Origin: Telopea speciosissima
Lineage: Eukaryota > Streptophyta > Magnoliopsida > Proteales > Proteaceae
Assembly: GCF_018873765.1 (NCBI RefSeq)
Contig: NC_057922.1
Location: 9,685,563 to 9,749,562, forward strand
DNA: 64,000 bases
Reading direction: 5' to 3'
Shown here: in pieces, positions 8,706-61,683 of the stretch
Layout of the letters: each line of letters begins with the position of its first letter
How positions within the stretch are numbered: the first letter of the stretch is position 1
Program-made: the position numbers and the translations under genes
The notes under the pieces: generated by a model
Told to the model about the DNA's origin: nothing
The model's database searches: none
Seen by the model: the letters and a program-made list of their open reading frames with translations, nothing else

Positions 8706-9254
8706 CCATGTAAAAGGGTTTGAATAAGGTTTTTTTTTTTCATCCTTTATCTGGGTTTGGGACTGGCAGCAAACCCATATCCTACTTGCTGAAGTCCTTA
8801 TATTGAACTGTTATTAGCATTAAGCAACTATGCTATGAGATTCTGTAACTTCCTGTTTAGTGATTCTAAATTGTGTAATCATCATCAAGTGGTCTTCTTT
8901 ATTCATTTTTCTAATTGATCCTCCACTTAATTAGATGGTTATAGCTCAAAGACAGTTAGTTTATTCGGCTAATTCCTTGAACAAACAAGGACGGTTGAAA
9001 TCTTTCCTTAAGTAATCAAAATTCTTATAGAACAATCTGAATTCACTTATTGGAGCTTTTCTGATCAACCACTCTTTGAAAATAAAATAATCTGCACTTT
9101 ATCTAAAAGTGGTCTAACACTAAGCTAATGGGTGTCTTGTTATTGAAATCCTGATAAGTTTAAATGGCTAATGCTGTGCTCTGCTTGATCTACCGCATTT
9201 GAAATTCTCCCCCCCTCCCCCTCTAGTTCAACAGAATTGATTCCTCCTACGTAT

Positions 9255-9372
9255 AAAAAGGGTGTATCCAGTGCACGAGACTCCCGCCATTGCGGGGTCT
9301 GGGAATGTCATAATGTACACAGCCTTACCCCTGTTTTTGCAGAGAGGCTGTTTCGAGAATTGGTCCCCTGTC
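9255..9372 (-). mobile_element. Au-type SINE, partial
   Basis: Starts AAAGGGTGTATCCAGTGCAC and runs through 'cataatgtacacagcctta' and GAGAGGCTGTTTC, the minus-strand Au SINE body. The tRNA-like head beyond the AGGCTGTTTC block is degraded. Confidence 0.7.
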
Positions 9373-9843
9373 TAATAGAAATAAAATCAAGATTTAATGT
9401 TTAATGATTTACCCAAAAAGAGCATTCGAACTTCAAAGATACTCAGAATAAATGGTGTTAAAAAAGAGCCCTTTGTTCACTACTTCATTAATCAGTCCTT
9501 AGTCTTTGGGAGCTAAAGAGGGAATTAGATACGATGAGTCCAACTATAGATGGTAATGATTTGTAGTTTAATCATAAACCGATTGAGTGCTCATACCACA
9601 TTAACACAGACAATCTGTACAATAAAACCAAGCTAAACCACTTCTGGTATTCTCAGGCTTTAAGTTTGTATGAACATTTGGATCGAAAGTGATGAGTTGG
9701 GTTCCTTACTTAATGCTTTTGTATACGATATATCCCTGTTCCATTGATGTTCCTGTCAATTGGTCTGTGCACCCAATAAAGATAAGATTTGAAAGTACGA
9801 AGGAACCTATTCTATTTTCAGGAAGGATGGAGGGGAGGCCACA

Positions 9844-9933
9844 CACGTGAGTTGAGGGGAAAATAATGGATATGCGAAAGATATAATAATGTAAATATAT
9901 TTTTTGCTTTTGCTTATGCTTCTCTATATAAAC
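9844..9933 (+). promoter_or_regulatory. Putative promoter of the amino acid permease gene
   Basis: A TATA box CTATATAAAC lies at 9924-9933, which would place transcription start near 9955. A CACGTG G-box at 9844-9849, 80 bp upstream, is a candidate bZIP/bHLH site. The link to the gene rests on position, strand and the spliced leader that follows. Confidence 0.5.
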
Positions 9934-21054: not shown

Positions 21055-21398
21055 AAGAAATTTACAGCCCTAATAGACAATGAACACAAATTTTATGAAA
21101 TGACATATTTGCTCCTATTGTGGGAGGAGAGAAATAGACATATAGGGAGGATGGAACTCAATCCCTAAACAAAAATAAGACAAACATTTAAAAAAAATAC
21201 TCATTATAACATGACCAACAAGGAAATAATAAGTATTTTCACAATAATGGTATGAGATACATGACAAAACAAACCTCTTTCTACACAACATAATTGACGG
21301 AGAAGAAGAAAAACGATAAACGAGCTTAAACTACATACAAATTCTTCTTCTCTTGGATTGAATTCACATCTCAAGATGATTCAATGGTTGTCCCAAAG
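21055..21398 (-). other. 3' flank homologous to the flank of the first kinase copy
   Basis: Read on the minus strand after the stop codon, this matches 2038-2305: GATGTGAATT, AAGAATTTGT, 'tattgtgaaaat' and 'tttgtgttcattgtctat' occur in the same order. A short extra segment rich in TCCTCCC lies within this copy only. The duplication therefore included the 3' untranslated region. Confidence 0.7.
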
Positions 21399-21935
21399 TT
21401 ATTGTGTGGATTTGCCTTTGGGAAACACTGCAAGTTCTTGAGACACTTGTTGCATGGTTGGTCGTGATTGTGGATTTTCATGTAAACAAGAAAATACTAG
21501 CTTCATAATTAAAGACAATTCCTCAGCAACTTGATTTATTGGAGGTGAGATGCGCTGGTCAACTATATCCATCAATAATATGATTTGTTCAACAGATGGC
21601 AATGTTGAAGAGGATAGTGATGGAAAAGTGGTGATGAGTCCTCTTGGATGCTCTCCCATCATCACTTCCAAAGTTACTACACCAAAACTATAGACATCAC
21701 ATTTTTCAGTCACCCTCATTTTGTAAGCAAGCTCTGCAGAATAAGTAAAACAAATGATATTAGGGGAGAGTTTACAGTATCCGATACCAACAATTCCCAT
21801 CTCAATCTGATTGATCAAGTGTGGTACTTGCTGAGAATTAAGGGAATGTTGCTGATCGAGTAGACTCCTAAATCACAAACTCTACTTTGGTCAATAAACA
21901 TAAAATTTAGCGAGTTCTTAGACAAGGATTGAATG

Positions 21936-21969
<34 letters not shown>

Positions 21970-23237
21970 CCTGGTGCAAAATATCCATATGTTCCTGCAA
22001 GAGTTGTCCAATGGGATGTATCAAGCTTTAGAAATCTACTAATGCCGAAGTCTGAGACATGAGGCTCAAAGTTTGAATCCAATAAAATATTATTGCTCGA
22101 TATGTCTCGATGAATTATTGGAGGTGAGCAGTCATGGTGCAAGTAAGCTAGAGCTTGGGCTACACCTTTAACAATATTTACCCTTTTATTCCAATCCAAT
22201 TCTGCCGCTTCTTCGTCCATTCTTAGGATCTTAGTCAAGCTTCCTCTCTCCACATATTCATAAACCAAAAAAGAGTGCCGAATGTGGGAGCAATAACCAT
22301 AAAACTTCACAACATTTCGATGTCGCACCTCCATCATCATAAGAATTTCATTTCTGAAAGTTTGTTGATCAGAAATCTCGCCATCTGAAGAAGAGGTGAT
22401 CTTCTTAACAGCTACCAGTTGACCTGATGACAACTCTGCTTTATAAACACTTCCATGTCCTCCCACACCAATGCAATATTTGAGGTCAAACTGCTCAGTT
22501 GCTTCAATGATGTCTTGGTATGCTATCATCCCATCATAGTTCCATATTGTAAACATATCTTTGGGTTGTTGGTTTGTAATTGGGTCCTCCTCTTCTATAC
22601 ATCTCTTTCTTCGGCGAAAAAATAAAAAAGTTCCCCCAAGGAATGCAAATATTTGAAACAACAAAATTGCTAAGAGTGATATGATAAGAATCACGGCTTT
22701 GTGGATCTTTTTTGGGGTTTGCATTTTGGTTGATGAAGTAATATTGCAAGGTCGCAAACCTGTGACATTGGCGCACAAATCTTTGTTGTGAATAAAAGTT
22801 TCCATCGAAGCATTTAGGAAAGCTTGATTATCAGGTAGAGGACCCTCTAGCTCATTGTAAGATACATCAATGATTGTCAAACTGAGCATTGCAGAGAAAG
22901 TAGATGGAATTGAACCCAACAGGTTGTTATGAGAGAGATTCAAATTTGTAAGCTTGTCCAAGTTTCCAAGCTGCGAAGGGATCTCTCCTGTGAACAAGTT
23001 ACCACTAAGGTCCAGTAGCATCTGTAGGGAAACTAAATTACCAATTTCAATAGGAATGCTTTCGTTGAATCTATTACTGCTCAAATTCAAGTAGAGAAGA
23101 TTTGTGCAATTCCCTAATTGTTTTGGAACTGGTCCCCCTAGATCTGTAGGGAAAATACTAAGACCCAATAAATTGAGCTCTACATTTCCGTATAAATGAA
23201 AACTCTTTTTATCTACAAATTTTGTGAAAAAAGCCAA
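21399..23237 (-). pseudogene. LRR receptor-like kinase (MIK2-like), 5'-truncated paralogue
   Basis: Two exons (23237-21971 and 21733-21399; intron 21734-21970, phase 1) give about 533 codons. From about 23145 onward it is collinear with the kinase at 1-2037: four to five LRRs, membrane segment, and a complete kinase domain with GVGGHGSVYKA, VAVKK, HRNVVKFYGYCSH, IIHRDISSNNILLD, an intact SDFGISRF and APELAY. Upstream of about 23145 the sequence no longer resembles LRRs and the open frame contains no ATG (the codon at 23237 is TTG; the frame is closed by TAA near 23325). A full-length family member would have a signal peptide and some 20 LRRs. So the ectodomain and promoter are missing. The kinase half is intact and could be expressed only through a new start. 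Stop is TAA at 21401. Confidence 0.83.
21935..21968 (-). repeat. Compound (CT)n(CA)n microsatellite at the splice donor
   Basis: On the minus strand the intron donor GT leads straight into CT then CA repeats, the same arrangement as in the first kinase copy, but shorter. Confidence 0.9.
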
Positions 23238-34600: not shown

Positions 34601-37600
34601 AAGGTTCTTAAGACTTAGAGGACAGCTATTCATAACCAACACGGTCTCACACTTGATAATCAAATTAAGCCATCTGTGGCCCAAGTAATCCTCAAGTCAT
34701 CCTATGATAGCCTTCAGTTCTGCTGTAATGCCTTCAGCCAAGTCAATCAGTAATTGGACCTGAATAAGCCAAGGCAATGTTGCCTTGGTGATCTCTCTCT
34801 CCATACAAGGTATGATACTCGGAGTTATTGTAAACAAGCTCTAATAAGTAAATCTGATTCATTTTGTCCTCTCTTCCGTTCCTTTATTTCGCATTTGAAT
34901 TTCTGGTTACATGGGAAAATCCCATTCCACTTGGACCTTCCTTGACCAAATAACTTACAGTCTTATACCAAATCATTCAAACCAACACTAGGATAACATA
35001 TGTAAATAGTAAATCATTCGAACTATACCGTGCCATTCTTCCAATGCTTGACAAGGACATCTAATGTAGTCCTAGATTGGTAAAAGACCAACTAGGAGCC
35101 AACAACCAGGATCTATTATGAACAGGTAAATCGGCTAGGTCAAAATAGGATTTTCGGTGAAATTTGGGCTAGGGTTTGGATCGATTATTCCTAGTGTAGG
35201 GAATGAAATTCGATTCAGGTATGGTGTGTGTCTGATGGTTGGATTGGTCTGTGAAGAATTTAGGTAATGGGATGATCTCCATAAATAGGTGGGATGTTGT
35301 GGTTTGAATGAGGTAATGGAAAAACAGCTTGGTTTGAGTATTCCAATTGGGCAGGAGAATACTCGATTAAATTATGTGAAGGTGTTGTTAGTTGAATGGC
35401 CTGTTAAGAATTTTGGGAGATGGGATGGTTTCAAGAGATGGGTGGGAAAATTAGGGTTATGGGATTGGTTTGGAGGATTAGGAGAAGAATGGGTATCCTC
35501 AAGTTTCTCATCTTTGAAAAGAGCATTCTCTTCTATATTTCTGCAGTTCCAATCCTTTCCTCAATAGTCATATCACTATGAGCTTTCCCTGGTTGATTAA
35601 GGCGGCCTTGGGGATGTAGAGGATTAGAAGAAGAAGATTAGGGATGATTCCAAACTTACTTCTGGTTGCAAACAGTTATTGGCTGCAGCTTGTTGATGAA
35701 CGAACTTGAATAAAAATTGAATCTTTGACTAAAACTAGAAAGTAGAACTTGAAGAGAACCACTCGGCCTTCACACCGCAAAGTGTCGATTGGATCAGACA
35801 CCAATCCCACCAACAAACCACCCGGGCTTCCCACCGCAAGGTGTCAATCGGATCAAACACCGATCCCATAAGCCTTGATCAAACACAAGACCAAAATCTT
35901 CAATGGAGAAGAAGAGAAGCAAAAGCTTTTCATTAATATCAAAATTAGTGTAGGCCCCGTTTGTTTAGAAGGGACTTAGGTGGGGTGGGAGAATTGAGGA
36001 GGGAAAATGCTGATGTGGCACTTCAAAATCCCATCCCAACCTTGTTTGGTTAATTTGGGGTGGTGAACTTACAAAAGCTCAGGGAGCATCATTAATTGCT
36101 TTGTCTGCTGATGTGGCACTTCAAAGTCCCACCCCTTTGCTATCCAAAGTCCCTCCAAATTGGTGGGACTTTGGTTACTATTCATGGGAAAAGTAACTTT
36201 ACCTCAACATTTCCACCCCAACAAAACCCCACCAACATGTGGGTCCCATCTTCCCAACAATCCCACCCCACCTTCCCCTCTAAACAAACGAGGCCGTAGA
36301 GGTGTGGACCATAGTTGGAAAACCAGGTTTTCTGACTCGACTTGTCTTTCATAAAAACCTGATGACTCGGCCTTGTCAAACCCGGTCAAGGCGAGTCACG
36401 TTTTCTTCTTATTTTTAATGCAATAATATGTATAAATTATAAAAAACCAGAAAATACAGGAAAAACATATGGGAAAACTAAAAGAAAAAAAATTAAAGGA
36501 ATCACATATCAATGCATTTGAGTTTATACCTTTGAACAAGGGAAGGGAGACAAGGAGTTGAGGGTTTCTTACTGTTTTAGAATACGGATTTATTATTTTA
36601 CTCAACTCAGTATCTAAGTGACTCAGCTTCATGGTTTTTTTTTAAAATGACTAAACTCGCCAAGTCTGTGATGACTCGGGTAAAATTATTGAGTCTTATT
36701 ATCGTCGATTTTTACCCTGACCTAGTCTACACGAATCTTGACCAGGTTTTCCAAAATTTTGACTCGACTCGGGCGATTCGGCCAGTAAAAACCCGGTTTC
36801 CCAACTATGGTGAGGACCCTAAAATAAAACTTAAGTTAAGAAGATTCTACCTTAAAGAATATTCTAAAATCATTTAAATTGGACCAGTGATCCAACCGGT
36901 TCAATTTAAAACACTACAACATGAAAATAAACAAAGTATAGGGCTAATCCCGTATGCAACTTATGTACCCCAACTTAGGCCAATAAAAGCGGCCTATTAC
37001 ATAGAAAACCCATGGGACCAAAGGCCCAACATGTCAATAACCCAACCCTAGACGTATTTCTAGGGAAAGAAGCCTAATTTGGTGATTAACCTGCATCAGC
37101 TCTCCCCATCTTGAAAAAATTCAAGGACGAATTTTGTAGTGAGGAGGGGGAAACAACATGTGAGTAGCAGCTTTGACCATTCCCAAGCAGAATTCTAGTT
37201 GCTTGTTGACTTTAGGGATGTAGTCTCCAAGGCATGGAGCTTTCTCTCCAAAGAACCATAGTGGCATAACAACTCTATGTGCTCGACCTCTGAATCAATA
37301 TTAATTATGTATGACGTGTTCATAGAGTCTTCAACAGTTGTAACCTTTTCATCTAAGACTTGAGGCGCAAGTTGTGCCTCTTCAAGAACAGCACCTTGAA
37401 GGCCAACGATTTCCTGTGGAGTGATCTCAACCACCTCTTTAGCAAGGTACTAAAACTCGGGTCTCGGTACCAACTCGGCCCTTGGAAAAACTGAGTCGAG
37501 TTGAGATCTCGCCGAGTTGGTGCTTTTTTTTTCGACTCAAAGCCTCAACTTGGTGGGTTTTAGACCTAGTTTGGGTCTGAAACTTGGTTTTCAGCCTATT

Positions 37601-40600
37601 TTAGGCCATTTAAACACAATGGCACTATCAGATTTTGCAAAAACAAAGTCCAAATATGAGTTTCAATTTGCACCATAGGTTGGTCGGCGATGACGTACTA
37701 AAATACCTTACTCTACACATAACTTAGTAATAGAAAGCAAGCAAAACATTCAATTAATAGCTAAACAACTTAAATAAGAATTAGAAATGTTAAAGTGATA
37801 CATCAAACTGTTTAACAGTGTTACAACTATCATCACATAAAATGACTTTGAATCAAGTATTCAGTCCCTGCTAGTGTCACAGTCTTCCCATGAGGCCATG
37901 ACATAGTGTTGTTGTAATGTTGCATATAGTGCTCCACAGCAAGCATATAAGAGTTCTGTCGAGTTAGGTAAATAAATACATAGTAGATGGGCCATTTCCA
38001 TGGGTCAACCCGAGATCCGAGATCTCACCGAGATGCGTCAAGTTCTATGGAGTTAGGTAAGTAAATACATATTAGATGGGTCATTTTCATGGGTCAACCC
38101 GAGATCCGAGATCTCGGCGACATCTTGTCTTATTTTGTATCATATCCTATCTCGTCTCAGTTTCTCAAAAAATCGAGAAACTCACCGAGATCTCGCGAGT
38201 TCTCGAACTATGCTCTTTAGTAACTACATGAACCACATAGGAATCTTCCTCATCAAGCATGTTGTCATAATATTCAACATCCATGGGATAAGGATGCAAT
38301 CCTTCATCATCTTTAGCTTGATCTTCCTTTTCAGCAACAACAATAGACTTTTTACGATAAGGGCAGTCCTTGGCATGGTGTCCAATGTCTTGGCAGTGGA
38401 AGCATCGGACTTTGTCAGTACTAACCATAAGGGCTTTACCCTTGTTGTCAACTTGTGGAGGAGCTGCCAGACGTGAAGGTTCAGCAGTAGAAGAGCTAGT
38501 AGTAAAAGGTTTGGGTGCTGGAAAATTTTTGTTGTTGTCGATAGCAGGAGTACTAAACCGTTTACCTAGTGATGCTAAAAGCTCCTCAGCCTTAAGAGCT
38601 TTCTCAAAACAGTCCCTAACATTAGACATATCTGCTACACCAATGACCTTGTTGATTTCATATCTCAATCCCAAACGGAAACGTGACAATACCTGAATCT
38701 CATTCTCTCTAATGCCCGTACTAGAAGAGAGCGAATCAAATTTTTGCATGTATTCAGCCACTGTCATGTTCCCTTGGCATAGAGTGTTCAGCTGGTCTTG
38801 CAATTGTGCCCTAAAATGCTTGGGCAGATACTTCTTCCTCAACTCATGTTTCTTCTCAGCCCATGTGGTAGGTGCATTACCATCATATTCCATGTCACCC
38901 TCAGTGGTTCTCCACCACTCACGGGCAGGTCCCACTAGCGTGGAATGTGCTAGTTTATTTTTCTCTCCTCCGGTAAATCATACCAGGCATAGTAGTCATC
39001 CAATGCAGCTAAGCAATCATAAAAACCTGGGGCTCAGGGTTGCCATTGAATTCCTTTAATTCCAGCTTGACCTTTTGCACATAAAGATATCTCCGACGAG
39101 GAGCACCATTATCAGCATTAAAGTAAGACCTAATATGGTCTTCAAAGCTCATACGATTCTCTGGGGTTCCCTATTTTCTCTGTCGTCTCTATATCTATCT
39201 TCTCTGTATTTGTCTTCTCAGTATCTGTCTTCTCTATGCCTGTATCTGTCATCCCTGTACCTATCCATGTCTTCCCTGTCTCTACGATGAGGTCGATGGA
39301 CTTGGGATTGAACCTAGTACATGTCCTCTTCCATGGGCAGGTTGTTGTCCTTAACAGATGTAACTTGTCTTTGCTCAATAACTTGCAGCCGATCATGAAT
39401 AAACTTCTGATCAGCTTGTAACCGTTGTAGCATCTCAAGAACCTTTGTCATAGGGTGGGTAGAGACAGATGGAATAGGCTGGCCATGTTCATCCATGGCT
39501 CTAATACCACTTAATTTAGTCCTAGATTGGTAAAAGATCAACTAGGAGCCAATAAACCAGGATCTATTATTAACAAGTAAATTGGCTAGGTCAAAATAGG
39601 TTTTTCAGTGAAATTTGGGGCTAGGGTTTGGATCGATTATTCCTAGTGTAGGGAATGAAATTCGATTCAGGTATGGTGCGTTTTGGATGGTTGGATTGGT
39701 CTATGAAGAATTTGGGTAATGGGATGATCCCCATAAATAGGTGGGATGTTGTGGTTTGAATGGGGTAATGGAAAAACAGCTTGGTTTGAGTATTCCAATT
39801 GGGCAAGAGAATACTCGATTAAATTATGCAAAGGTGTTGTTAGCTGAATGGTTTGTTAAGAATTTTGGGAGATGGGTGGGAAAATTAGGGTTTTGGGGTG
39901 GTTCAGAGGATTAGGAGAAGAATTGGTATCCTCAAGTTTCCCATCTTTGAAAAGAACATTCTTTTCTATATTTCTGCAGTGCCAATCCTTTCCTCAATAG
40001 TCATGTCACTATGAGCTTTCCATGGTCGATTAAGAAGGCCTTGGGGATGTCGAGGATTAGAAGAAGAAGATTGGGGGTGGGGATGATTCCAAACTTACTT
40101 GTAGTTGCAAACAGTTATTGGCAGCAGCTTGTTGATGGAGGAACTTGAATGAAAATTGAATCTTTGACTGAAACTAGAAAATAGACCTTGAAGAGAACCA
40201 CTCAGGCTTCACACCGCAGAGTGTTGATTGGATCAGACACCAATCCCACCAACGAACCACCCGGGCTTCCCACCGCAAGGTGTCAATCGGATCAAACACC
40301 GATCTCACCAGCCTTGATCAAACACAAGACAAAAATCTTCAATGGAGAAGAAGAGCAGCAAAAGCTTTTCATTAATATCAAAATTCGTGTAGAAGTATGG
40401 ACCCTAAAATAAAACTTAGGTTAAGAAGATTCTACCCTATAGAATATTCTAAAATCATTTAAATTGGGGATTCAACCAGTTCAATTTAAAACACTAAAAC
40501 ATGAAAATAAACTAAGTATAGGCTAATCCCGTATGCAACTTAGTAACTTACGTACCCCAACTTTAGGCCCATAAAAGTGGTCTATTAAATAGAAAACTCA

Positions 40601-43600
40601 TGGGACCAAAGGCCCAACATGTCTGTAACCCAACCCTAGACTTTATTTCTAGGGAAAGAAGCCCAATTTGGTGATAAACCTGCTTCAACATCACATATAG
40701 AAGAAAATGCCCTTTAAAGTCCAAGTCTGTATGGCTAACAGATGCAACCAATTTGTGACATGGTCACTATCAATCACAGGATATACTTTCCTTCCAACTA
40801 GGTTACACCAAATTATGACTGGTCAATTTAACAAATCAACAATAATAAATCAAAATTTTTATTGACTAGAGAAGTGCTGATTTGATTATATAAACTACAT
40901 TGCTTTCAAATAATGAAGTACCTTAAGAAGGTCGAATACTTTCTCTGCAATGCATTTCTGTTGAAGATTAGCACCTTTCTGTTGCACCTTATCAGGATGG
41001 ATACACAAAGTAGCTTTTCTGTAAACCTTTTTAACTGAGGCAGCAGTTATCAAATCAGTCAAAGAAACAGGCTGCCAACCGCATTCAGGCCAAAGCACCT
41101 GCTCATGATTAAATGAATATTAGAAATAACTTGGCATGTGGAACAATAAGCTATACATGATTATTAACCAACAAGACCAAAAAAACATTTCAGACATGTC
41201 AAGAATAGGATCCCATATTCCCATGTCATTCTACACCTCTAGCACCAACTAAAGAAGTATGCTTTCCTGAGGAAGCAGATAATCACCTTCTACAAGGTGT
41301 AAGACTTCATTGAATTACTTACTTATTTTACCTTGGACATTGGTCAACTCAGAAAAATGGTCTATTACAAAAAACAGAGGATCGAGGACAACTAGGTAAC
41401 TGTTCATCCGGGAAATAATGGATAGTAAACTAGAAAAAGATATGCAATTAGTAAATGGACCATCCAACTTCCTTGAAACCTGGGTAACATCAGATGAGTT
41501 AGACTCTATTCTGTGGGCCCCCTCAATCAAGAACAGAAACCTTCTTAAATAACCTAAGTTTTTACTTTGACAGGGCCCTCAATTAAGCAGGACCAGAAAA
41601 CTAGAAAAGATCTGTGAGACAGCATTTTTTGGGTCAACATAGCCCCAACTCTGGCTGTGCTAGTTTCTAAGTTAACATTAATCATCCACTCTGGTTTCTT
41701 CTGCAGGTCCCACCTTGTTCCTTGACTCATACAACTAATAGATCACTATTAATTAATGTGGAAACCCACTACATGGAACCTAGAACTCATCAAGATTGCT
41801 GCATATGAGACTGGGCATGGAATTTTTCCCCGAACCACTATATCACCTCGGGTTAGCTTTCTTTCAAGACTGTCCACAGAATTTACTTTAAAAAGAAAAC
41901 TGCAGTAGCTCACCCATCAAAAAATCTCAAGGAATTCTCTTAAACATTTTTTTGTCAGAAACTTGATAGTTCCATACAGTACTTCACATGGAAGCCTCAA
42001 AACTCATCCAGACTGTCTCCCAAGGATTTCTCCTGAAAAATTATTATGCTAGAAACTCGCTTCTTTCTTCTCTAGTATTTTACTTCATATTCACTGAAGT
42101 TTGGTTGAAATTAAGAACCTTGCTAGCTAGATACTTGAACACTTCAATTTAAGCTACAAGAGACACTCCGTTTCCATAAAGGAATGTTTTACTGCATCTA
42201 TGACCTATCTATGGACAATAGAACCAGAAATCAGTAAAAGGTTGATCAACCAGTGCAAATTAGTACAGAGACAGTGGAACTAAACGTTGACAAGTCTGTC
42301 AAAGTCAGTGAAATTCATTTTCTAACAAGAAACTTGAATGACTGGGATGTTGAACAAATGCTGCAGCACCATTGTTAGAATGGAAGAAAAGGAGGGCAGA
42401 TTGATTTCGTGACTGGGAAATAGAGGCTGTTACTCTAATTTCTCAATACAATTCAACTGGACCTAACAGAAGTTCCCCTCCATTTCAGGTAGTATAGATG
42501 AAGGGATTGCCAACAAAACAAAGTCTTTCGGCAGAGGCCCTTGATAGCAATCCAACCATAGATCATTTGATTTCATGGGGTTACTGCCTTCCTAATGCCT
42601 TCCTGTTGTGGTTATGATCCGATCATTCGAAATACAGATTACTCTTTTTGATGATAACATAGGCAGGGTTACGTCCAGGGATGTAGAAGACCTAACACAG
42701 AACTGAAATGAATTGAAACTCAGATGTTGGGCGAAGATATTATGGTCCTATTTCCAGCTGCCATCACTTAGAGCATATGGAGAGAGCTTAAGAAGATAAA
42801 AATTGAAAAGGATGATGAACTAAACCAGATGGGACATCCTTTTTTATTTGTTTCCTTGTTTATGTTATGCCTACAGGCTACAGCCCATTCTAAGTTGTTA
42901 GGGACCTAGGAGCCCTCCCCACAATTTGAGATGTGTTTCATGAAGCTTTGGTTTTCATGCCATGTTGCTGTGTGATGCAGTGGAGTGAGGTGAGATACCT
43001 AAGATTAGTGAGAGACTGACCAAGGCCATAGATGAGAGGCCTTGGTCATATCCCTCCCCCCTCTTTCTTCTCTACCATCTTTTCCTCAGTTTCTAATTTA
43101 TTTCACTGCAACTGAGGATCACTGCAAGGTACCGAGACCTACTGTGAGGGTGTTAAATGTGTAGTTGGTAGTTGGCTTGTTGCATATTCCATCAATCTTT
43201 GTAATGCACTGAAGATTAGGAAGCAGGAACACTCTACTATTCTGGGTTTTCTGGCAGCAACCTTCAATGGTGTTTTCCTCCAAGCATTAACTCCCACCGA
43301 TCTTGTCATAGTTATCAAGGCGGCAAGGCGACCATTGAGTTTTAGAGGGTCCAAAATCAAGACAGCAAGGCACCTGTCTAGGCGACCAAGGAGCCTGGAT
43401 GCCTAGGCAACGCCTTGATCACTATGCATCTTCTAGTATGTCAATCCTCCATTCATTGGCCTCCTTCGACAGTAAGTTCATACCCATCCAAATGGCTATA
43501 AACCTCTGAGGTAACAACCTTCTAAATCTGGTTCTATAGTTTCTAATTTTGAAGCACTGTCATAACTATTGATCTAGCTATTGGATGTGGCCATAAATTT

Positions 43601-46600: not shown

Positions 46601-49600
46601 TAGCACGGTCACGTGCTTCAGCTTGAGCCCTTTCAGCTTTTAGGCGAGCTTCAGCACCTGCTCTCTCGCGTGCTTCTCTGGTAGCCCTCTCCACGGCTTG
46701 TCTGGCCTTCCCCATTTCAATCTCCCGAGCTCTCTCTCTCTCCCTCTCAATTCTCCTTTGTTCTCTTTCTTTCTCCTCTCTCTCTTTTTCACGATCTAAT
46801 CTCTCTTGCTTCTCCCTAAGTTCCCTTTCTTGAGCATCATGCTGGACCGATTCCTTACTTCTTGCAGCCCTCGCAATTTCTCTCTCCCTTACTTCCCTAG
46901 CATGCTTGAACTTTGCCTCAGCTCTATCCATGGCCTCCTTCATAGCAGCAGCAGCTGAGTTTGTCTCTATGTCATCTTCACTAGATAGACTGTCTGCTTG
47001 TTCATCAGCATTATTTTGGAACCTACCCATGGCAAAGTCTTCAAGTTCATCAATCGAAGAGACACCAGAGCTCTTCTCTGAATCAGGGACTGTCCTAGGA
47101 CTCTGGAAGTTTTGAGTGGAATGTGGAAAGGTGGGGAAGTCATTAACCTTCTTCATATTTACAGGTGCAACAGAACCTTTATCTCCTTTAAAAACTTGTG
47201 CTGGTTTAGGAGGAGGAGGTCTTGAAGGTGGTGGAGCACTTGTAGGTTGTGTGAAAAGAGGGATCTCAGAGACAGTCAACCATACATCATCAGCTCCTTC
47301 CCAAATTTTTTCAGATTTCGGAGACCTGTCTACCCGAGAGGTTGTCTCATTAGAATCGGCATTTACAAAAGAAGTGTGAGAACCAGCATGACCAGCAGGT
47401 TTATTAGAATTTGATGAAACACTGGGAATGTCAAAGAGGGTTTGATGAGATTCCCGATAATTGTCAACAGGTACCTTCTTCTGTGAGGTGTCCTCAGACA
47501 TCCTTACAGAAGATTTCCCATTTGACTCTTTGCCAGCAGAAGCATCTGTGTTACCTGTCCTTAAAGGGCTTTTTTCCCTCCCTCTGTTATTCATCTCAGG
47601 TGAAAACATGGGCACAGATTTCCCCAGGCTATCAAGAGGATCTATATCATCTAATGCCATCCCACTACGTGCTGAACCTTCAAATTTTGCACTTCCAGAA
47701 TTACTGGGCTTACTCATTTGCTCCAAAGGATCAGTAAACATGCTTGAGGATGGGTAGACTGGTGAAGAAGTTGATCCCAAGACTACAAAGGGATCATCCA
47801 TCATGCTGGCAGTTGATTTAGATGAAGGAACAGTAGACTGCTGAGGCTGATTTGTCTCTGAAGTTGCTCTGTGGAAAGGATATGATGTTTCCAAGACCAA
47901 ATATCAATTAATATCTGATATATCAGCCTGACTATCATTTAAATGGAGAGATATACACAAAGAGATTCTGAAGAATAAACTAACTATAATCTTCAGAAAT
48001 GGATTAGAAAAAATTCATATCAATTTACCTAATTAAACAATGAAAAATAGAACAGCATCAGAAGTACTACAGACGCATATATACTAGAGCAGACAATTTT
48101 TTTGGTCAATCATAGCAAATCCATGTGCGAATGATCAAACACCAAATAACTGGGCTAGGAAGGAAGCAAATTGCAAGCATAAAAAGTGATCAAAATTTCA
48201 ACAGCATTAAAAACAAAATCTCATAACGTCCAGTCCAACCTTCCTTTCACAAGTCAATAAATAAAAAATAGACAGGCGCAAAAAAACAGGTATACTTGCA
48301 AATCAAATTTATACATATTTCAGCATATCTTTCTTCACTATCTTTACTCAACTTTGAGCTAATAAAGGGGCGTGTTGTGATTTGGGGAATGATGGCTTGT
48401 CAATTGACAAAGGCCTGGGTTTTATTTATAACAGAATAGAATAGGTACAAGTACAGCACTGCCCCTAGGACAATTCTACCGTTATACCCATATACATCAG
48501 TCCCCCTCAAGTTGGTGCATAGATATCAAACATGCCAAACTTGCACACAATTGCTTTTGAAGCAACATTACATAACTAGAAACTCTTCATAACCAAGGAA
48601 GAGTTCTCAAAATAGAAAGTAGAAGCTTACAAGAAATAGTATCTGGAACCTTATATACTAAGGTAACTAAATAAGCAATAAAGAAGCCACAAAATAAAAC
48701 CCACGATCCCAACAAGTAGCTGGAAGATCTCAACATAATATTTCCCACGCAAATCTCTTTTAGATCTTGGAATATCTCAACAGAATATTCTCCAAATATT
48801 ATGGTCGATCTCCTCTAGATGTTCTCCATAGATGCCGGTCAAGCCCCAATCGACTTACTTTTAAGGAGACCAAAAATCTCCAGCTATAGATAAGATCCCC
48901 ATCTAGGAATCCTTCGAACCAATGGACCCCGCTACTAATACAAAATTAAAAGACTAAATTTGTGCACCCCCTTGGACCTAAGATTGAGGCCTTATAATTG
49001 AGCCCATTACAAATAAAAATGCTTAAAAGAAAAACCCATAACCAAATAATATCAAAACATGCCCAAAATAAAAGATCAAATCACATCCAAATATCCAATG
49101 GTGATGCGAATGGGTTTTACATATAGTGGGCTTATGGTCTAATGGGTTTTCTTTGTATGGGATACTTTAAAGAACCTATAGTATCAATACTATGCAGGAT
49201 CACAAATCTTATTTCAGTTTCCTTTTTGCACCGGGACCCGAGCCAGCCCCTAGAAATTTTATTAACCTAATTTCAGTTTCCTAGTAGAACTAGGATTTCC
49301 GAACCCATATCCAATTTAACGTGGTCTATGGGTCCTTGTTTGGCAGGGATCATATAATAGGATTCTTTTAACAGACTGCAAGTGTCACTGGGATTCCAAA
49401 TCCCAAAGCTCCTGGAATTCTTTATGATGCTTCCCCTTCATCAATAATATTCACTTTTATACATAAACTGATGAGATATTATGAGTTGCTTTTGGTGATT
49501 ATTAACTTGTGTATGTTGATGAAAAAGCATTAATATGAATGGTTAAATCGGTACCCTCTCGAGCATCAAGAGTTCAAGACGTTGTATGGAAAGCTAGTCT

Positions 49601-52600
49601 AAGCAAGTGGATGGAGACAGCAAGCAAGTATCTCAATGGAAAATCCAAGACAAGATTGAATGACAAGTGGCATGAAGTTGAGAAGCCAGACTGGAAGACT
49701 CAAGCTTCACTTCAGTAAGGCCAAAGTCATGAAGGGTTGAAGCATTCAAATTAAAGATCAAGTTTCAAGGAACCATAATGAAGATCAAGAATTAGGAATT
49801 AGTTTCAAAGTTGTAAATGTAATATTTCCTAAATGTTGTAGAAGTGATTCTAAAAAGGCCTAATTAAGTCACCGAAGATATAAAGGAACAATGCCCCCTA
49901 ACTTATGTAAGGTTAAATTTGTGACTTAGCTCAGTCCGAACACAAAAACTTTGTATTGCAGATGACCGCACTTAAGTACACACATCCGAGATCAATAATG
50001 ATGTGTTTTAAAGCTCCACTGTCTGAGGACGTCCACACCTTTGTGCAAACATCCACAAGATAGCATGGGCATCCGCAGTCGAACGTAGACGTCCGACTTA
50101 GCCTGATGTAGATCCCAAGTCCATGTGTAGCCCCAAAACCAACCCAGTGTAGTTGTGGGATTCAACTGATGGGAGAGGCAGCCTGGTCTGATGATGTTGC
50201 AGGTTTTTGTAGGTTCGATGGAGCATCTCTATCAAATTTGTGGATGAGTTTTTTCAAGGTAGGGGAGAATTGATGCAAATACGTCACCTAAAGGGCTTAA
50301 TTTTTTAAAAATAAGCTTTGTTATGTAGGTGTTGGGCTTTTGATCCCATGGTTTTACTTTGTAATTGGCCAATTTAATGAGCCTAAAATATGGGTAAAAA
50401 GTAGGAAAACGGGATTTACTTCATTAGTTTAGTTAGAGTCCCGTTTTGAGTCTATTTCCTTTATTATTCAACTTTCCTAGTCAATTTAGGTTACCTTGTT
50501 AGTTAAGGATAGGGTTAGGCCTTTCCTTTTTAGTGTCTCAAGTCTATTTTTGAGTCTTCTATATAAGTGTGTAAAGGAGGCCAGCATTGTACACGAATTT
50601 GATTAATGAATATTGGCTTAAGCCTTTGTGAAAATTCTGAGATAGGATGGGTGAGATGCCCAGGCTGAGATGGCCAACCCCAACCTTTCCTCACCCCCTT
50701 CCTTCGGTAATGGGTGAGAGCCTTTGACTGAAATTAGGGTTTGGAATCAAGAACCGATGGAAGGGGATGGAGGCAGGTTGGTGTTGGCTATCTCAGCCTG
50801 GGCATCTCACCCATCCTATCTCAGAATATTCACAAAGGCTCAAGCCAATGACTTAATCAAATTTGTGTATCATGCTGGCCTCCCGTACAAACTTATATAG
50901 AAGACTCAAAAATAGACTTAAGACACTAAAAAGGAAAGGCCTAACCTTATCCTTAACTAACAAGGTAACCTAAATTGACTAGGAAAGTGAAATAATAAAG
51001 GAAATAGACTCAAAACAGGACTCTAACTAAACTAATGAAATAAATCCCGTATTCCTACTTTTTACCCATATTTTAGGCTCATTAAATTGGCCAATTACAA
51101 AGTGAACCCAGTGAACCCATGGAATCAAAAGCCCAACACCTGCATAATCCAACCCAAAGCTTTTTCAATAAAATAGCCCTTTAGGTGACTTATCTACATC
51201 ATCTGGTTTATTGTACTTGGTTTTGTCACAGGCATATTATTCCACGTAACCCAATTCACCCCCTTGGGTTGCCACATGATCCTACATAACATGTCTCATA
51301 GTCAGAAAAGGACTCTAAGTATCTGAGGTTAGTGTTCACTATGATTCTTAATGTTCATGTTCACTATGATTCTTGCTGAAAATTCAGTTCATTAGTATCA
51401 TTGAATATGTAATATACCATAATGTCTACTTCATATTTCCCACAAGTTATGCAAACTTACCGATTTTTCAACACAAAAAAAGTTTTTTGTAAAAAGTGCA
51501 AAATTCAACATCTAACCAGAATGTTCTATTTAGGATATGGGGGTGGAGGACTTCAGAAGCATATGCCACCATGTTTCTGCAGTAATCTGGTTCTGTTCTT
51601 TCCTTGACACCTTGTTTTGGAGAGATTTATGACCATTTGAGGATAAGTAACTAAGATGAGGACATGGATATTAGAGAAAAGAGTAAAATGCTGAACACTT
51701 TTACCTCAACAAAGTCTCCACGTCCCCCCCCCCCCCAAAAAAAAAAAAAAAACGGAAGAAAAAAATACAAGCATGGAATCAGCCAAATAAATGAAGAAAC
51801 ATGCAGATCAGAAAGATGTTCTGCTGTAATGTCTGTCCATGTGAACATTTGCAAACTGCTGAAAATCACAATGCTGTTGAGGATTCAGTATTTAGATATT
51901 TTAAATCCAGAGAGTGGTGACGCTATTTCAAATTTGACATGATTTAGGAGTACCTTCTGATAGAAGAAAAGTAGAACTGTAGATGGAAGACGTTTCGGGT
52001 CGTATGGCCATCTGCAGTGGAGGCCTTTAAGTGCACTGCTAAGGAGGAGTGATATGATGAAGTTCACAAGAGCTAAAAGACCAATAGATAGACCGAATTA
52101 CTTGTGAATAGATGGTGAGAAAGGAAATAAATAGTTTTTGGTTGATGACAAATATGGCTTTAAACAGGGTGGAATGGCGAAACAGGATCCATGTACCCAA
52201 CCCATTTGGTTGGATAAATGCTTAGTTAAGTTGAGTACCTAGATATTTTAAATCCAGAAAATATCTTCTCCAATTATTATGTTAGACATTAATGCAGCAT
52301 CAGCACATTAGTTACTTGTCTCAGACACCCAAGTCAGCAAAAGCCAAGACTAAAGAGGTACAGTGACAAGTGATAACTGAAATGAAATACTAACAAAGAT
52401 TTATTTCACCTCATTCCTTTCTGATTTAGAAGTGACTGAGAAGAGATTATAAATACGTCACAGAATGGGATATAGAAAGAGAACCAACAAAAGACTCACC
52501 AACAAAGCTCAGTTTAGGATAAATGATATTTTCCATTTGTAAGTGGAATGTAGTCCCACGTGAATAAAGGAAATCTCAGTTTCCAAATCGTAGCTATAAT

Positions 52601-53540
52601 CCCATCTAAAACGTAAATTTCCGTGCTTCATGTGCTTAATAGGAGTGTGAATTTACTCACTCCAAATACCAATATAAAAAAGTGGCAATTTAATCCAGTG
52701 AGCTACAGATTAGTAAACGAATTGGTGAAAGAATAAACAAAATTCACTCAAAAATACATTAAAGTTCGGAAACGAAAGCAAATTGAATCATCAACATATA
52801 CCACTTGATTGCATGCCAAAAATGTACCTATTCTTTGGAGGACTGATCCCACCAAAACCAGGTATTAAATCATCAAAATTAGATGCATCCTTCACGACTT
52901 CTTCCGATCTCCTTCCGCTAGAACCCTTAGAATCCGGCTCCTTCCGTCTAAAACTCCCTAACAAATCATCGAATGGAACAGTTTGTTTCGGAGGCGAAGC
53001 GATCGACGCGAACACATCATCATTATTTACAGCAGCAGAAGAGCCCTTCATACCAGGCAACCCATGAAATATATCGCCGTCGTCATCATATTTAGGCTTA
53101 TCAAAAACAGGCAAAGACGAAACCTTTGCACCCGAATCCTTCGACCCTTGAAATATTGAATCATAGTCGAAAGAAGAGGCTGAAGAAGCACCACCACCAC
53201 CACCACGAGTCTCCGTTCGATTATCATACTTAGGAGGGCCACCAAATACATCGTCGTAACCACCATCTCCATAACCCTGGGTTTTCCGAGTCGCAGCGGA
53301 ACCAAAGAGCCCGTCGTGATCGTCAAGGAAAGACCCACCAACTGAATTGGAATTCCAGCCCGATTTCGAACGGTTAGACGACAATGAAGCGGATCTAGAG
53401 TCTCCCCCTGGTCCGATCCCGACATTAAGGTTTCCAGAACTATTAAGGCCACCGGCACCCTTCGATGCCGCCATGGGAGCCGATTTGCCTTGAGGCCTGA
53501 ACCCAAAATCCCTCGCCAACAGACCAGGAAACTCATCCAT
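31657..53540 (-). CDS. Auxilin-like J-domain protein (auxilin-related, AUXILIN-LIKE1/2 type)
   Basis: Eight coding exons on the minus strand: 53540-52828, 47868-46260, 46164-46032, 45943-45843, 45675-45610, 45417-45328, 41098-40922 and 31695-31657. Every intron is GT-AG and the frames join to 975 residues. The protein recruits Hsc70 to strip clathrin from coated vesicles in the cytosol. The N-terminus [14 protein letters not shown] is diagnostic of plant auxilin-like proteins. DPL/DPF motifs (for example DPFETQF) are likely adaptor-binding. Residues about 540-740 are a long Glu/Arg/Ala coiled coil, followed by [19 protein letters not shown]. The C-terminal J domain (about 875-975) has [35 protein letters not shown] with HPD at 938-940, and EKVFDLLK. 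The final exon supplies [12 protein letters not shown], the expected C-terminus, 9.2 kb beyond the J-domain exon. Introns 1, 6 and 7 are swollen by transposons. No coding lesion seen. Confidence 0.93.
32906..33044 (-). mobile_element. Au-type SINE, near full length
   Basis: Minus-strand Au SINE: GGGCATACCCAGTGCCCGAG, then GAGTCTGGGGAGGGTCATAA, 'tgtacgcagcctaacccc', GCGGAGAGGCTGTTTCC, and the tRNA-derived head with AACCTTACCATTGCACCCAG. Opposite in orientation to the SINE at 44.4 kb relative to the host gene. Confidence 0.82.
33059..33244 (-). mobile_element. 5'-truncated LINE (L1-like 3' tail)
   Basis: On the minus strand it ends TTGAATTATTTATTCATCC plus an A run, a typical plant L1 3' end, preceded by a pyrimidine-rich stretch and a C homopolymer. 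Only 186 bp remain and none codes for reverse transcriptase. Both sides carry the 14-bp target duplication. Confidence 0.75.
34500..34760 (-). pseudogene. Possible RNase H-like remnant of a retroelement
   Basis: A broken minus-strand frame reads [13 protein letters not shown], then [13 protein letters not shown], resembling the AE-x-A...G...ETDS-ALVV pattern of retroelement RNase H domains. There are stops and no surrounding reverse transcriptase could be identified, so this is weak. Confidence 0.28.
35954..36295. mobile_element. MITE in the 3' LTR (Tourist/Harbinger-like?)
   Basis: 342 bp with terminal inverted repeats GCCCCGTTTGTTTAGAAGGG and, from the right end reversed, GGCCTCGTTTGTTTAGAGGG. 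The flanking repeat is GTAG (35950-35953 and 36296-36299). The 5' LTR supplies the empty site. Inside, GATGTGGCACTTCAAA occurs twice. The superfamily is uncertain because the short target duplication is not a clean TWA. Confidence 0.78.
36310..36809. mobile_element. hAT-like MITE in the 3' LTR
   Basis: 500 bp with inverted termini CATAGTTGGAAAACCAGG and CATAGTTGGGAAACCGGG. Flanked by GTGTGGAC (36302-36309) and GTGAGGAC (36810-36817), an 8-bp duplication with one change. The matching empty site GTATGGAC is in the 5' LTR near 40394. The body is rich in GACTCG/CGAGTC motifs. Confidence 0.82.
37195..39496 (-). pseudogene. gag-like gene of the LTR element, interrupted
   Basis: It starts with the ATG at 39496 that abuts the primer site ([11 protein letters not shown]...). 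Then come an Arg/Asp/Tyr-rich stretch now in other frames, a retrotransposon gag core (38935-38300: [51 protein letters not shown]) and a zinc knuckle [14 protein letters not shown]. The coding frame passes VVTKE, is cut by the 770-bp insertion at 37443-38212, and resumes as [19 protein letters not shown] to a TAG at 37195. Frameshifts and stops also occur between 38940 and 39310. Without the insertion it would be about 500 codons. Confidence 0.8.
37443..38212. mobile_element. hAT-like element inserted in gag
   Basis: Exact 8-bp target repeat CTCTTTAG at 37435-37442 and 38213-38220. Termini GCAAGGTACTAAAACTCGGG-like and, reversed, GCATAGTTCGAGAACTCGCG (14 of 20 match). Non-coding, rich in GAGATCTCG motifs. 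A segment of about 80 bp (TAAATACATA, TAGATGGG, CATGGGTCAACCCGAGATCC) is repeated in tandem at about 37970-38030 and 38055-38115. Its termini resemble those of the element at 19.2 kb. Confidence 0.82.
39495..39509 (-). other. Primer binding site of the LTR element
   Basis: Minus strand TGGTATTAGAGCCAT, one base from the recalled plant initiator-Met primer site TGGTATCAGAGCC. It directly follows the 5' LTR end. Confidence 0.85.
39512..40687 (-). repeat. 5' LTR of the gag-only element
   Basis: 1,176 bp beginning TGAAGCAGGTTTATCACC on the minus strand and ending GGACTAAATTA. No insertions, so it serves as the empty-site reference for the two MITEs in the other LTR. The ends are TG...TTA instead of the usual TG...CA. 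Confidence 0.88.
43307..43426. mobile_element. Small hAT-like MITE
   Basis: 120 bp with inverted ends CATAGTTATCAAGGCGGCAA and CATAGTGATCAAGGCGTTGC. Flanks GATCTTGT and CATCTTCT match at six of eight bases, an eroded 8-bp duplication. It lies in intron 6 of the auxilin-like gene. Confidence 0.7.
44434..44602 (+). mobile_element. Au-type SINE, full length
   Basis: tRNA-like head with CTTGTTGCAACGGATAGGTT (A-box region) and GTTCAAGAGTCTGG (B-box region), then CTGCGAAGCAGGGGTAAGG, 'ctgcgtacattatgaccc', AGTGGCGGGAGCCTCGTGCA and a short T tail after TGCCC. It sits in intron 6 of the auxilin-like gene, antisense to it. Confidence 0.85.
48373..48513 (-). mobile_element. Short LTR and polypurine tract of a copia-like element
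   Basis: On the minus strand a purine tract ACTTGAGGGGGAC leads into TGATGTATATGGGTATAACG and ends AAATCACAACA, a TG...CA unit of 127 bp. Copia elements characteristically have CTTGAGGGGGA before the 3' LTR. Sequence to the right (about 48514-48950) is presumably internal remnant; the 5' LTR was not found. It lies in intron 1 of the auxilin-like gene. Confidence 0.55.
49100..50270 (+). mobile_element. Probable retroelement interior, decayed
   Basis: No long frame. The last codons before 50271 read [11 protein letters not shown] and a TGA that overlaps the start of the following LTR-like arm, the same layout as at the 3' end of the gag-only element (LEFFQDGES then TGA). That supports a gypsy-like interior upstream of the arm. 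The rest is unrecognised. Confidence 0.4.
50271..51201. repeat. Large near-palindrome of LTR-like sequence in intron 1
   Basis: Left arm 50271-50707 and right arm 50754-51201 are inverted copies across their full length, separated by only 46 bases. Each arm's outer end is TGATG-CA/TA-A-TA-GTCACCTAAAGGGC, and shared blocks include 'tgtaattggccaatttaat', 'gagcctaaaatatgggtaaa' and GCCTTTGTGAA...TTCTGAGATAGGATGGG. The outer part also resembles the LTR start of the element at 35-40.7 kb (TGATGCAGG..., ...GTTGGGC-CTTT-GG-TCCCATGG). Transcription of the host gene would yield a foldback RNA. Confidence 0.85.
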
Positions 53541-54320: not shown

Positions 54321-54582
54321 AGATGTAATCCATCTATTGGTTGGTATTAAAGGATGGGCCATATGGGCATAATATCTTAGATGTTGGATTTTAATTAATA
54401 AATGGTTGAAATTGATTTTTTAATGTGGGGGTGTTTATGGGAATGGAGAGCATAGAATCTATGAATATGAGAATGATGGACGCACGTAATATCTCTTTTG
54501 TATGTTGTATAAGGTGGGAATAGAGTTCACAAGACTAACTTGACCATTCTCATACCATATTACTATCTATTTTATCATAGGT

Positions 54583-54751
54583 AAAAAGTTCTCTGTCGAG
54601 AAGTGTGGCCTACGCCAACACTCTCATGAGTCTATCTCTCTCATCCCCATATGAAAAGACATCTCTGCCCCCTTGTTTTAAGGAGGAGAGAGATAGACAC
54701 ATGGGAATACTGGCATAGACCACACTCCTTTATAGAAAACTGCTTCCCTTT
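54583..54751. mobile_element. Foldback MITE
   Basis: Arms of about 65 bp: AAAAAGTTCTCTGTCGAGAA...TGTGGCCTACGCCA...GTCTATCTCTCTC on the left and its imperfect inverse on the right (GAGAGAGATAGACACATGGG...TGGCATAGACCACACTCC). About 30 bp separate them. A possible TTTA/TTTAT target repeat is not certain. Confidence 0.75.
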
Positions 54752-56309: not shown

Positions 56310-57449
56310 TTTACAAAAAAATAAAAGTTTTAGGGTGAGTTTTAATCTCTGTACTTCCGTATAATTGTGTTGGAGTGATATCGAAGCTTGTGACTGATGC
56401 ATTATTCCTATGATTACAAAGGTGGAGATTCTATTAGACATATTTTAGGTTTTTATTTTTTATTTTTTTGGAGCTCCATTGAGGGTGTAATGGTGACCAT
56501 AAGAAAACTTTTCTGTTTCATATCCATTTTTCTTCTTTTGTTTTGAAATTTGGCTCCAAATCCTTTTCTAACCAAGAGAACCAAAAGTGGACTTGAAAAC
56601 AGAAACAAAAAATTCAGAGCATAGAACAACATTAAAGTGATTAAATGAAGTTGATGAGGCTAGGGATATTGTATATGTTTCGTTCCTTAGCTAAGTACGT
56701 TTTAGAATCTATGTTGTGTCTTTGTTGCTTAATTGAAGAAGGAAACCTTTACTTAGACTCCATAGCAAGCATATTCAAAACCCTCTCTCCGGCCTTCCTT
56801 GTGTGAGAAATGGTGTGTTCTGGGGGGCCATCAACCTACTTTAAGTAGAAAAAAGGTGGGACATTACTAATTAATGTGGCCCACAGACTGTCTTTTACGG
56901 ACCCATACAACCTACCAAGGCCCACCCTAGTAGTCGGGGTCACCTTATAGGTGCAAGACACATGTTGGTGTTGGACCCACCTGTGATGTGATCAAGTAAT
57001 TTTGAATTTTTTATATTTTTCTTTTCTATATCTTACCAAAAAAAATATATATATATATATTTTCCTTTTCTATAGACTTTTTCATGGCTAAACCTGATTT
57101 TTTTTTCCCTCACTTTGGTTTTAAAGTTTAGGAGAAAAGATTATCAAGATGCAGTCCATGTTTTTTCTCTCATGTGAATTTTTAGATACTCATTGATGTG
57201 GTATGCAGATTCATCCTCACATTGACAACATGGGGAACCCTTTTCTTAAAGTGTTTTTTCATTTTTCTCGGTTTGAAAACTAATTCTAATAGTCTATCAT
57301 ACTAGACTCTATGGGTTAAATAATGACCATTAGAACTGTATGTGCCCATAACCAAAACCTCCTTGGGGGGAGGGGGGGTAAACTTTAGTCGGGTTCTAAC
57401 GATTAGAGAAACTATAGAGTACCCTAGGTTTTAGAAACTTTGGGGGTAC

Positions 57450-61537: not shown

Positions 61538-61683
61538 TTATCTTCTCCATTTATCTGCCTTTTCATTTACTCCATTTCATCAAATAGGTGGGGAGGGAGG
61601 GGGGGGGGGGGAGGAGGGTGATCATTTCTACCCTTATAGGATGAAATGGAGGAAATAGAAAGACAGATAAATGGAGACGATAA
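61538..61683. mobile_element. Foldback MITE with G-rich loop
   Basis: 44-bp arms: TTATCTTCTCCATTTATCTG...CTCCATTTCATC at 61538-61581 and its inverse GATGAAATGGAGG...CAGATAAATGGAGACGATAA at 61640-61683. The loop contains a run of about 25 nearly uninterrupted G (61584-61617). Confidence 0.8.

Follow-up and report, generated by a model that had tools for sequence, protein, structure and literature searches.

The first intron of an auxilin-like gene was found to contain an imperfect palindrome of 931 bp (positions 50271-51201), the arms of which are two truncated LTRs lying in opposite orientations. By our assessment, there is about an even chance that this palindrome terminates an aberrant ~1.7-kb LTR-retrotransposon insertion with a single origin. 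All positions refer to the window, i.e., the whole 64-kb stretch of DNA that was analyzed, and the features considered are as follows:

47869 to 52827, minus strand: auxilin-like gene, intron 1 (splice sites GT at 52827 and AG at 47869; a codon split AG/A spans the junction)
49469 to 50270, plus strand: left-truncated internal 3' part of a family element (left edge uncertain by ~20 bp)
50256 to 50270, plus strand: polypurine tract AAGGTAGGGGAGAAT, immediately preceding the left arm
50271 to 50708, plus strand: left arm, LTR_A, the first 438 bp of a ~770-bp LTR (U3, R and part of U5), matching the 3' LTR of the family copy L030 at 1-445
50709 to 50722, plus strand: junction filler AATGGGTGAGAGCC, 14 bp (6 bp if LTR_B extends to 50715)
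50723 to 51201, minus strand: right arm, LTR_B, the first 479 bp (possibly 487) of the LTR, inverted and ending exactly at TGATG
51202 to 51287, no strand: right flank, unaligned to the paralog until 51288
35062 to 40687, minus strand: intron-7 element, a diverged LTR relative with gag and the target-site duplication (TSD) GATGT on both sides (coordinates counted by hand)

A self-BLAST of the window paired 50271-51201 with 51201-50271 at 85% identity over 957 gapped columns, and the coordinates proposed in an earlier sequence-only reading proved to be exact. Against its own reverse complement the palindrome scored 1075 bits, compared with 41.9 bits for the best minus-strand self match among ten dinucleotide shuffles of the window. 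The arms (50271-50709, 439 bp, and 51201-50753, 449 bp) have the length of about 440 bp that had been suggested, whereas the spacer between them, determined by an inverted-repeat search, amounts to 44 nt instead of 46. In the alignment of the arms, 404 of 430 ungapped columns were identical and 28 columns contained gaps, corresponding to a K2P distance of 0.063; the 26 mismatches comprised 16 transitions and 10 transversions. For the gene-sense RNA, an MFE of -672.6 kcal/mol was predicted, compared with a mean of -230.7 (sd 6.9) for 20 shuffles. The longest perfectly paired runs in the predicted duplex measured 52, 41 and 38 bp, and 94 perfect 21-nt windows were counted. If transcribed, the intron would thus be able to form an extended RNA duplex.

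A fold-back artefact of assembly or reads is unlikely, since it would give near-identical arms running on into the flank, whereas the arms differ at 26 columns as well as by indels and stop at the LTR boundary, the polypurine tract continues on one side only, and the flanks differ. A search of 47800-52900 against Rfam at gathering cut-offs yielded no matches, and neither did searches of viral contigs and genome contigs with one sequence pattern each. The arrangement was not recognized in the literature searched, which was covered by the starts of abstracts, and it may have been published before.

The position of the palindrome inside intron 1, as previously proposed, is supported by the gene model, in which frames ending in ...SPPKN and starting with ATSETNQPQ... 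join in frame over a GT..AG intron, the splice positions having been counted by hand on the sequence. An exon further left encodes a J domain (DnaJ, 1.8e-4, 22 bits, below the Pfam cut-off of 27.8), for which structurally characterized J domains of the auxilin type were retrieved as matches (3ag7, 9.8e-18; auxilin 1nz6, 4.3e-10), and the motif AWNKF is located near 31692. The auxilin-like host gene lies on the minus strand, and its transcript is predicted by the gene model. Contig C1 carries a paralogous locus, with exon as well as intron stretches alignable at ~69-84% identity. Intron 1 also carries fragments of other repeats (48373-49090, with many genome matches at 71-93% identity) and a run of 13 C followed by 16 A (51724-51752), which is likely a length-variable site.

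Numerous sites in the same genome (823 Mb) carry single LTRs that match both arms, as determined for the 40 scored out of 4928 first-look candidates. The LTR start occurs 747 times at up to three mismatches, the control giving none, and full LTRs of the family are ~770 bp long. In the two-LTR relative L030, LTRs of 773 and 767 bp enclose an internal part of 706 bp, with TGGTATCAAAG following the 5' LTR and AAGTAGGGGAGAAT preceding the 3' LTR; the arms align to the L030 LTR at 1-445 and 1-484, which assigns them to this LTR family. Family LTRs mostly begin with TGATG, those traced to their end mostly finish with ACATTA, and a TGGTATC-like primer site is present in family copies elsewhere. Both arms match the family LTR starts, confirming that they are LTR-like and start with TGATG. 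Exact 5-bp TSDs were identified at L004 (GGGTT) and L041 (ATATC), both single LTRs, and at L031 (CTACC). Tracts similar to the polypurine tract of the palindrome precede LTR starts in L006, L020, L030 and L031 (4 of 42 matches).

When 37 further family loci were aligned to the L030 LTR, two of them featured LTR matches in both orientations. At L031 (C5:40512500-40522499), the first 417 bp of the 5' LTR were inverted in place together with ~484 bp of upstream flank, the TSD CTACC being exact at both ends (parts at L031:1392-2652 and 9076-9849). At L025, a locus cut at its left end, a diverged LTR piece (15-168, plus) faces an LTR (1236-1970, minus) tail to tail at a distance of ~1.1 kb. The first 100 listed of the 747 LTR starts, inspected by eye, included two pairs within 2 kb, each in the same orientation. 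A C/T-rich stretch rendering the LTR break region fragile was considered and rejected, the richest windows of the L030 LTR starting at 175 and ~690.

The internal sequence at 50129-50270 is contiguous with the polypurine tract and LTR in L062 and L063, where contiguity covers 50129-50609, and we infer that 49469-50128 is part of the same element. The labels U3, R and U5 were assigned by position and a TATA-like box. As to the right arm, family matches commonly reach LTR position 479 and the L030 match reaches 487; a complete LTR of 487 bp was dropped as an interpretation of LTR_B in view of the full family length of ~770 bp. No polypurine tract is present in the flank upstream of LTR_B, and a genome search with 51202-51352 gave no other match among 40 scored of 279 candidates. 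The downstream (U5) sides of the arms face each other, and both LTRs are truncated in U5, which agrees with the earlier notion of an inverted layout abnormal for an LTR insertion. A full LTR with both termini and a 5-bp TSD was not found at the palindrome.

Thirteen bases of the filler equal the LTR segment ATGGGTGAGATGCC, located ~60 bp away, except for one deleted base, and only 1 of 5000 shuffles aligned as well, although this likeness may be due to chance if LTR_B is read 8 bases further and the filler shrinks to 6 bp. Templated filler can arise from end joining by polymerase theta. The 44-nt 'loop' consists mostly of right-arm LTR, because most of the top matches span the palindrome from its position 445 or 453 to 931 unbroken. 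These family copies settled the strand of the loop, which the comparison with the U5 of the intron-7 element did not: for the loop alone, 20 to 106 of 1000 shuffles were as good on either strand, and for the stretch from R to the loop, this applied to 5 and 11 of 300 shuffles for the right arm and to 13 and 16 of 300 for the left arm. The junction between the arms was found only once in the 823-Mb genome at up to three mismatches.

In the C1 paralog, 49468 and 51288 are neighbors (paralog positions 7324 and 7322). The intervening sequence looks like one insertion of ~1.7 kb, as the paralogous intron is without the stretch. Its right edge is fuzzy, since the paralog is only ~73% identical at the site and 86 bp (51202-51287) are unaligned. 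On the left, 40 other matches in the genome were considered for 49430-49720, of which 15 start at 49487 or further left and three of these at 49468 or further left (49468, 49456 and 49446). A left edge at 49496 with the one-mismatch TSD TTTGG/TCTGG was rejected because the homology of these 15 copies runs through it. An exact TSD was not found, TCTGG in the right flank being without an exact partner before a TG in the left part of the intron.

Searches of the window for remains of the element were largely negative. Twelve U5 pieces (from LTR position 440 on) compared with the rest of the window gave one match of 23 bp (E 0.009, at 56443), the matches of three internal parts in the window were confined to the intron-7 element and 50234-50270, near copies of the arms were absent beyond the diverged intron-7 element, and a 5' LTR belonging to the left element was not detected in the window. 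A separate piece resembling an old LTR start (49108-49223, 65-71% identical to the family) recurs in the C1 paralog of the intron and, being shared, probably predates the duplication.

To place the arms within the family, a tree was calculated from both arms and 40 of the 42 matches in the fetched loci, two short L048 pieces being left out, as were 11 locus ids that were either repeats or the window. Among these 42 LTRs, LTR_A and LTR_B are mutual nearest neighbors by K2P (0.063, followed by 0.080 and 0.082) and split off together in the tree (SH-aLRT 92.6, UFboot 98); in a tree of 25 LTRs, the pair received a UFboot value of 95. Other LTR pairs as close as the arms numbered 12 of 780. In the 25-LTR multiple alignment, LTR_A has a marginally higher identity with L019 (0.918) and L030 (0.915) than with LTR_B (0.914). 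Since the tree is limited to the LTRs scored in a single search (40 of 4928 first-look candidates), the genome may contain an LTR that is still closer to one of the arms. The distance between the arms is close to that between the LTRs of the intron-7 element (0.064 over 279 columns, 0.069 over 868 columns).

The insertion would thus read, from left to right: truncated internal part, polypurine tract, LTR_A 1-438, 14-bp filler, inverted LTR_B 479-1, and intron DNA. It could have originated from plus-strand DNA that was primed at the polypurine tract, stalled in U5 and switched template, the switched strand then priming minus-strand copying back through U5, R and U3, the tract and ~800 nt of internal sequence, after which end joining would have fixed the partial cDNA in the intron. 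The self-primed cDNA step, taken alone, is put forward tentatively. A single event is favored because the arms are mutually nearest by K2P, the flanks are adjacent in the paralog, and neither a 5' LTR nor a U5 remainder was found. The outer ends show an exact TGATG on both arms and the polypurine tract on the left only; a right arm ending exactly at TGATG without a tract would follow from a polypurine-primed plus strand starting exactly at U3. Points against one origin are the missing exact TSD, the sparse tree, the alignment that places LTR_A marginally nearer to L019 and L030, and the distant paralog with its 86 unaligned bp, as well as the L031 inversion, broken at nearly the same LTR place, and the facing pieces of L025, which indicate that facing LTRs also arise without an unusual cDNA.

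Alternatively, independent insertions of two oppositely oriented family members may have been followed by a deletion that removed the sequence from U5 to U5 and left filler, which we consider possible but rather unlikely. Such a course is compatible with the abundance of the family (747 LTR starts), with the existence of single LTRs bordered by exact 5-bp TSDs (L004 and L041), with the two facing LTR pieces of unequal age at L025, and with the fact that filler DNA occurs at deletions in plants. However, neither arm has a closer relative in the sample by K2P than the other arm, and more than one deletion would be needed, since the 5' LTR of the left element was not seen and the paralog shows one contiguous extra stretch. 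A captured self-primed cDNA is favored over two insertions followed by deletion.

It is improbable that one normal element underwent a chromosomal inversion with breakpoints in the U5 of its 5' and 3' LTRs and then lost its left part: inversion does occur in this family at nearly the same LTR position (L031, first 417 bp, TSD CTACC), but under this model remnants of U5 and of the 5' internal sequence would be expected to the left, none of which were found in the window. Three further candidates were rejected: autointegration, as the joint would be expected to hold an LTR terminus and the observed joint lies inside both LTRs; chromosomal fold-back duplication of one LTR, for which a polypurine tract would be expected on both sides; and a dispersed inverted-repeat element, given the single occurrence of the junction. 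If the cDNA reading is true, the site would be a retrotransposon replication intermediate fixed in the chromosome and would show a one-step route to a natural hairpin-RNA locus against a transposon family; if it is false, the site is an instructive rearranged relic.

In either case, the idea of the intron-7 element as a target of the hairpin, put forward in the sequence-only reading, has to be corrected. The hairpin and this element have no 15-mer in common, exact matches between them extend to 12 nt at most, and two mismatches remain in the best 21-nt window. The element encodes a gag frame (Retrotrans_gag, 5.3e-17; zf-CCHC), with the primer site TGGTATTAGAGCC and a diverged polypurine tract before the LTR, and an insertion of ~850 bp lies inside its 3' LTR. 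In contrast, exact 21- and 24-mers from the perfectly paired stretches recur in all 23 family LTRs checked, a set selected for its similarity to the palindrome, so that any siRNA from the hairpin would plausibly fit its own family.

The palindrome is most likely a passive relic. That intron 1 is a functional hairpin-RNA locus, yielding 21-24-nt siRNAs that would silence the family in trans, appears quite improbable: the arms have drifted by 6% and carry indels, and retrotransposon families of this kind are usually silenced by other means. In its favor are the perfectly paired runs of up to 52 bp with their 94 perfect 21-nt windows, the 24-mers shared with all of the similarity-chosen family LTRs, and the siRNA-rich introns described in PMC5260113. 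Two other sources report that secondary structure correlates with small RNAs in maize transposons and genes (PMC10760457) and that transposon-bearing introns of transcribed rice genes are often heterochromatic (PMC7145194); these facts fit a passive relic as well as a siRNA source. Highly unlikely is the combined scenario, in which a fossil of self-primed reverse transcription, a mirror-image LTR fixed in an intron, would have become a trans-acting hairpin against its own family.

Among known systems, the palindrome resembles the 3' end of an LTR retrotransposon in its polypurine tract and TGATG start, and its family is related to the gag-bearing intron-7 element; it differs in that its 3' LTR breaks off at 438 and is followed by an inverted LTR half, and in being without a 5' LTR and an exact TSD. 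The inverted 5' LTR of L031 belongs to the same family and likewise shows an inverted piece and an LTR broken at nearly the same place (417/425), but represents a local inversion that includes upstream host DNA, with an intact TSD and no tight palindrome. Foldback elements and long-TIR MITEs possess long inverted arms and a short loop. The palindrome shares this architecture, whereas its arms are LTR parts with a polypurine tract and its junction is present once in the genome. Like the 'sirtrons', a term used for siRNA-enriched introns in PMC5260113, the host intron contains sequence predicted to form a duplex, any siRNAs from it being putative.

Elsewhere in the window, two inverted copies of a kinase gene (127-2222, plus, and 21171-23143, minus) lie ~20 kb apart and are 79-89% identical, the latter copy featuring LRR and kinase domains. 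Smaller inverted repeats were observed at 54579-54749 (68% over 176 columns) and 61538-61683 (89% over 44 columns, with a gap of 59 bp).
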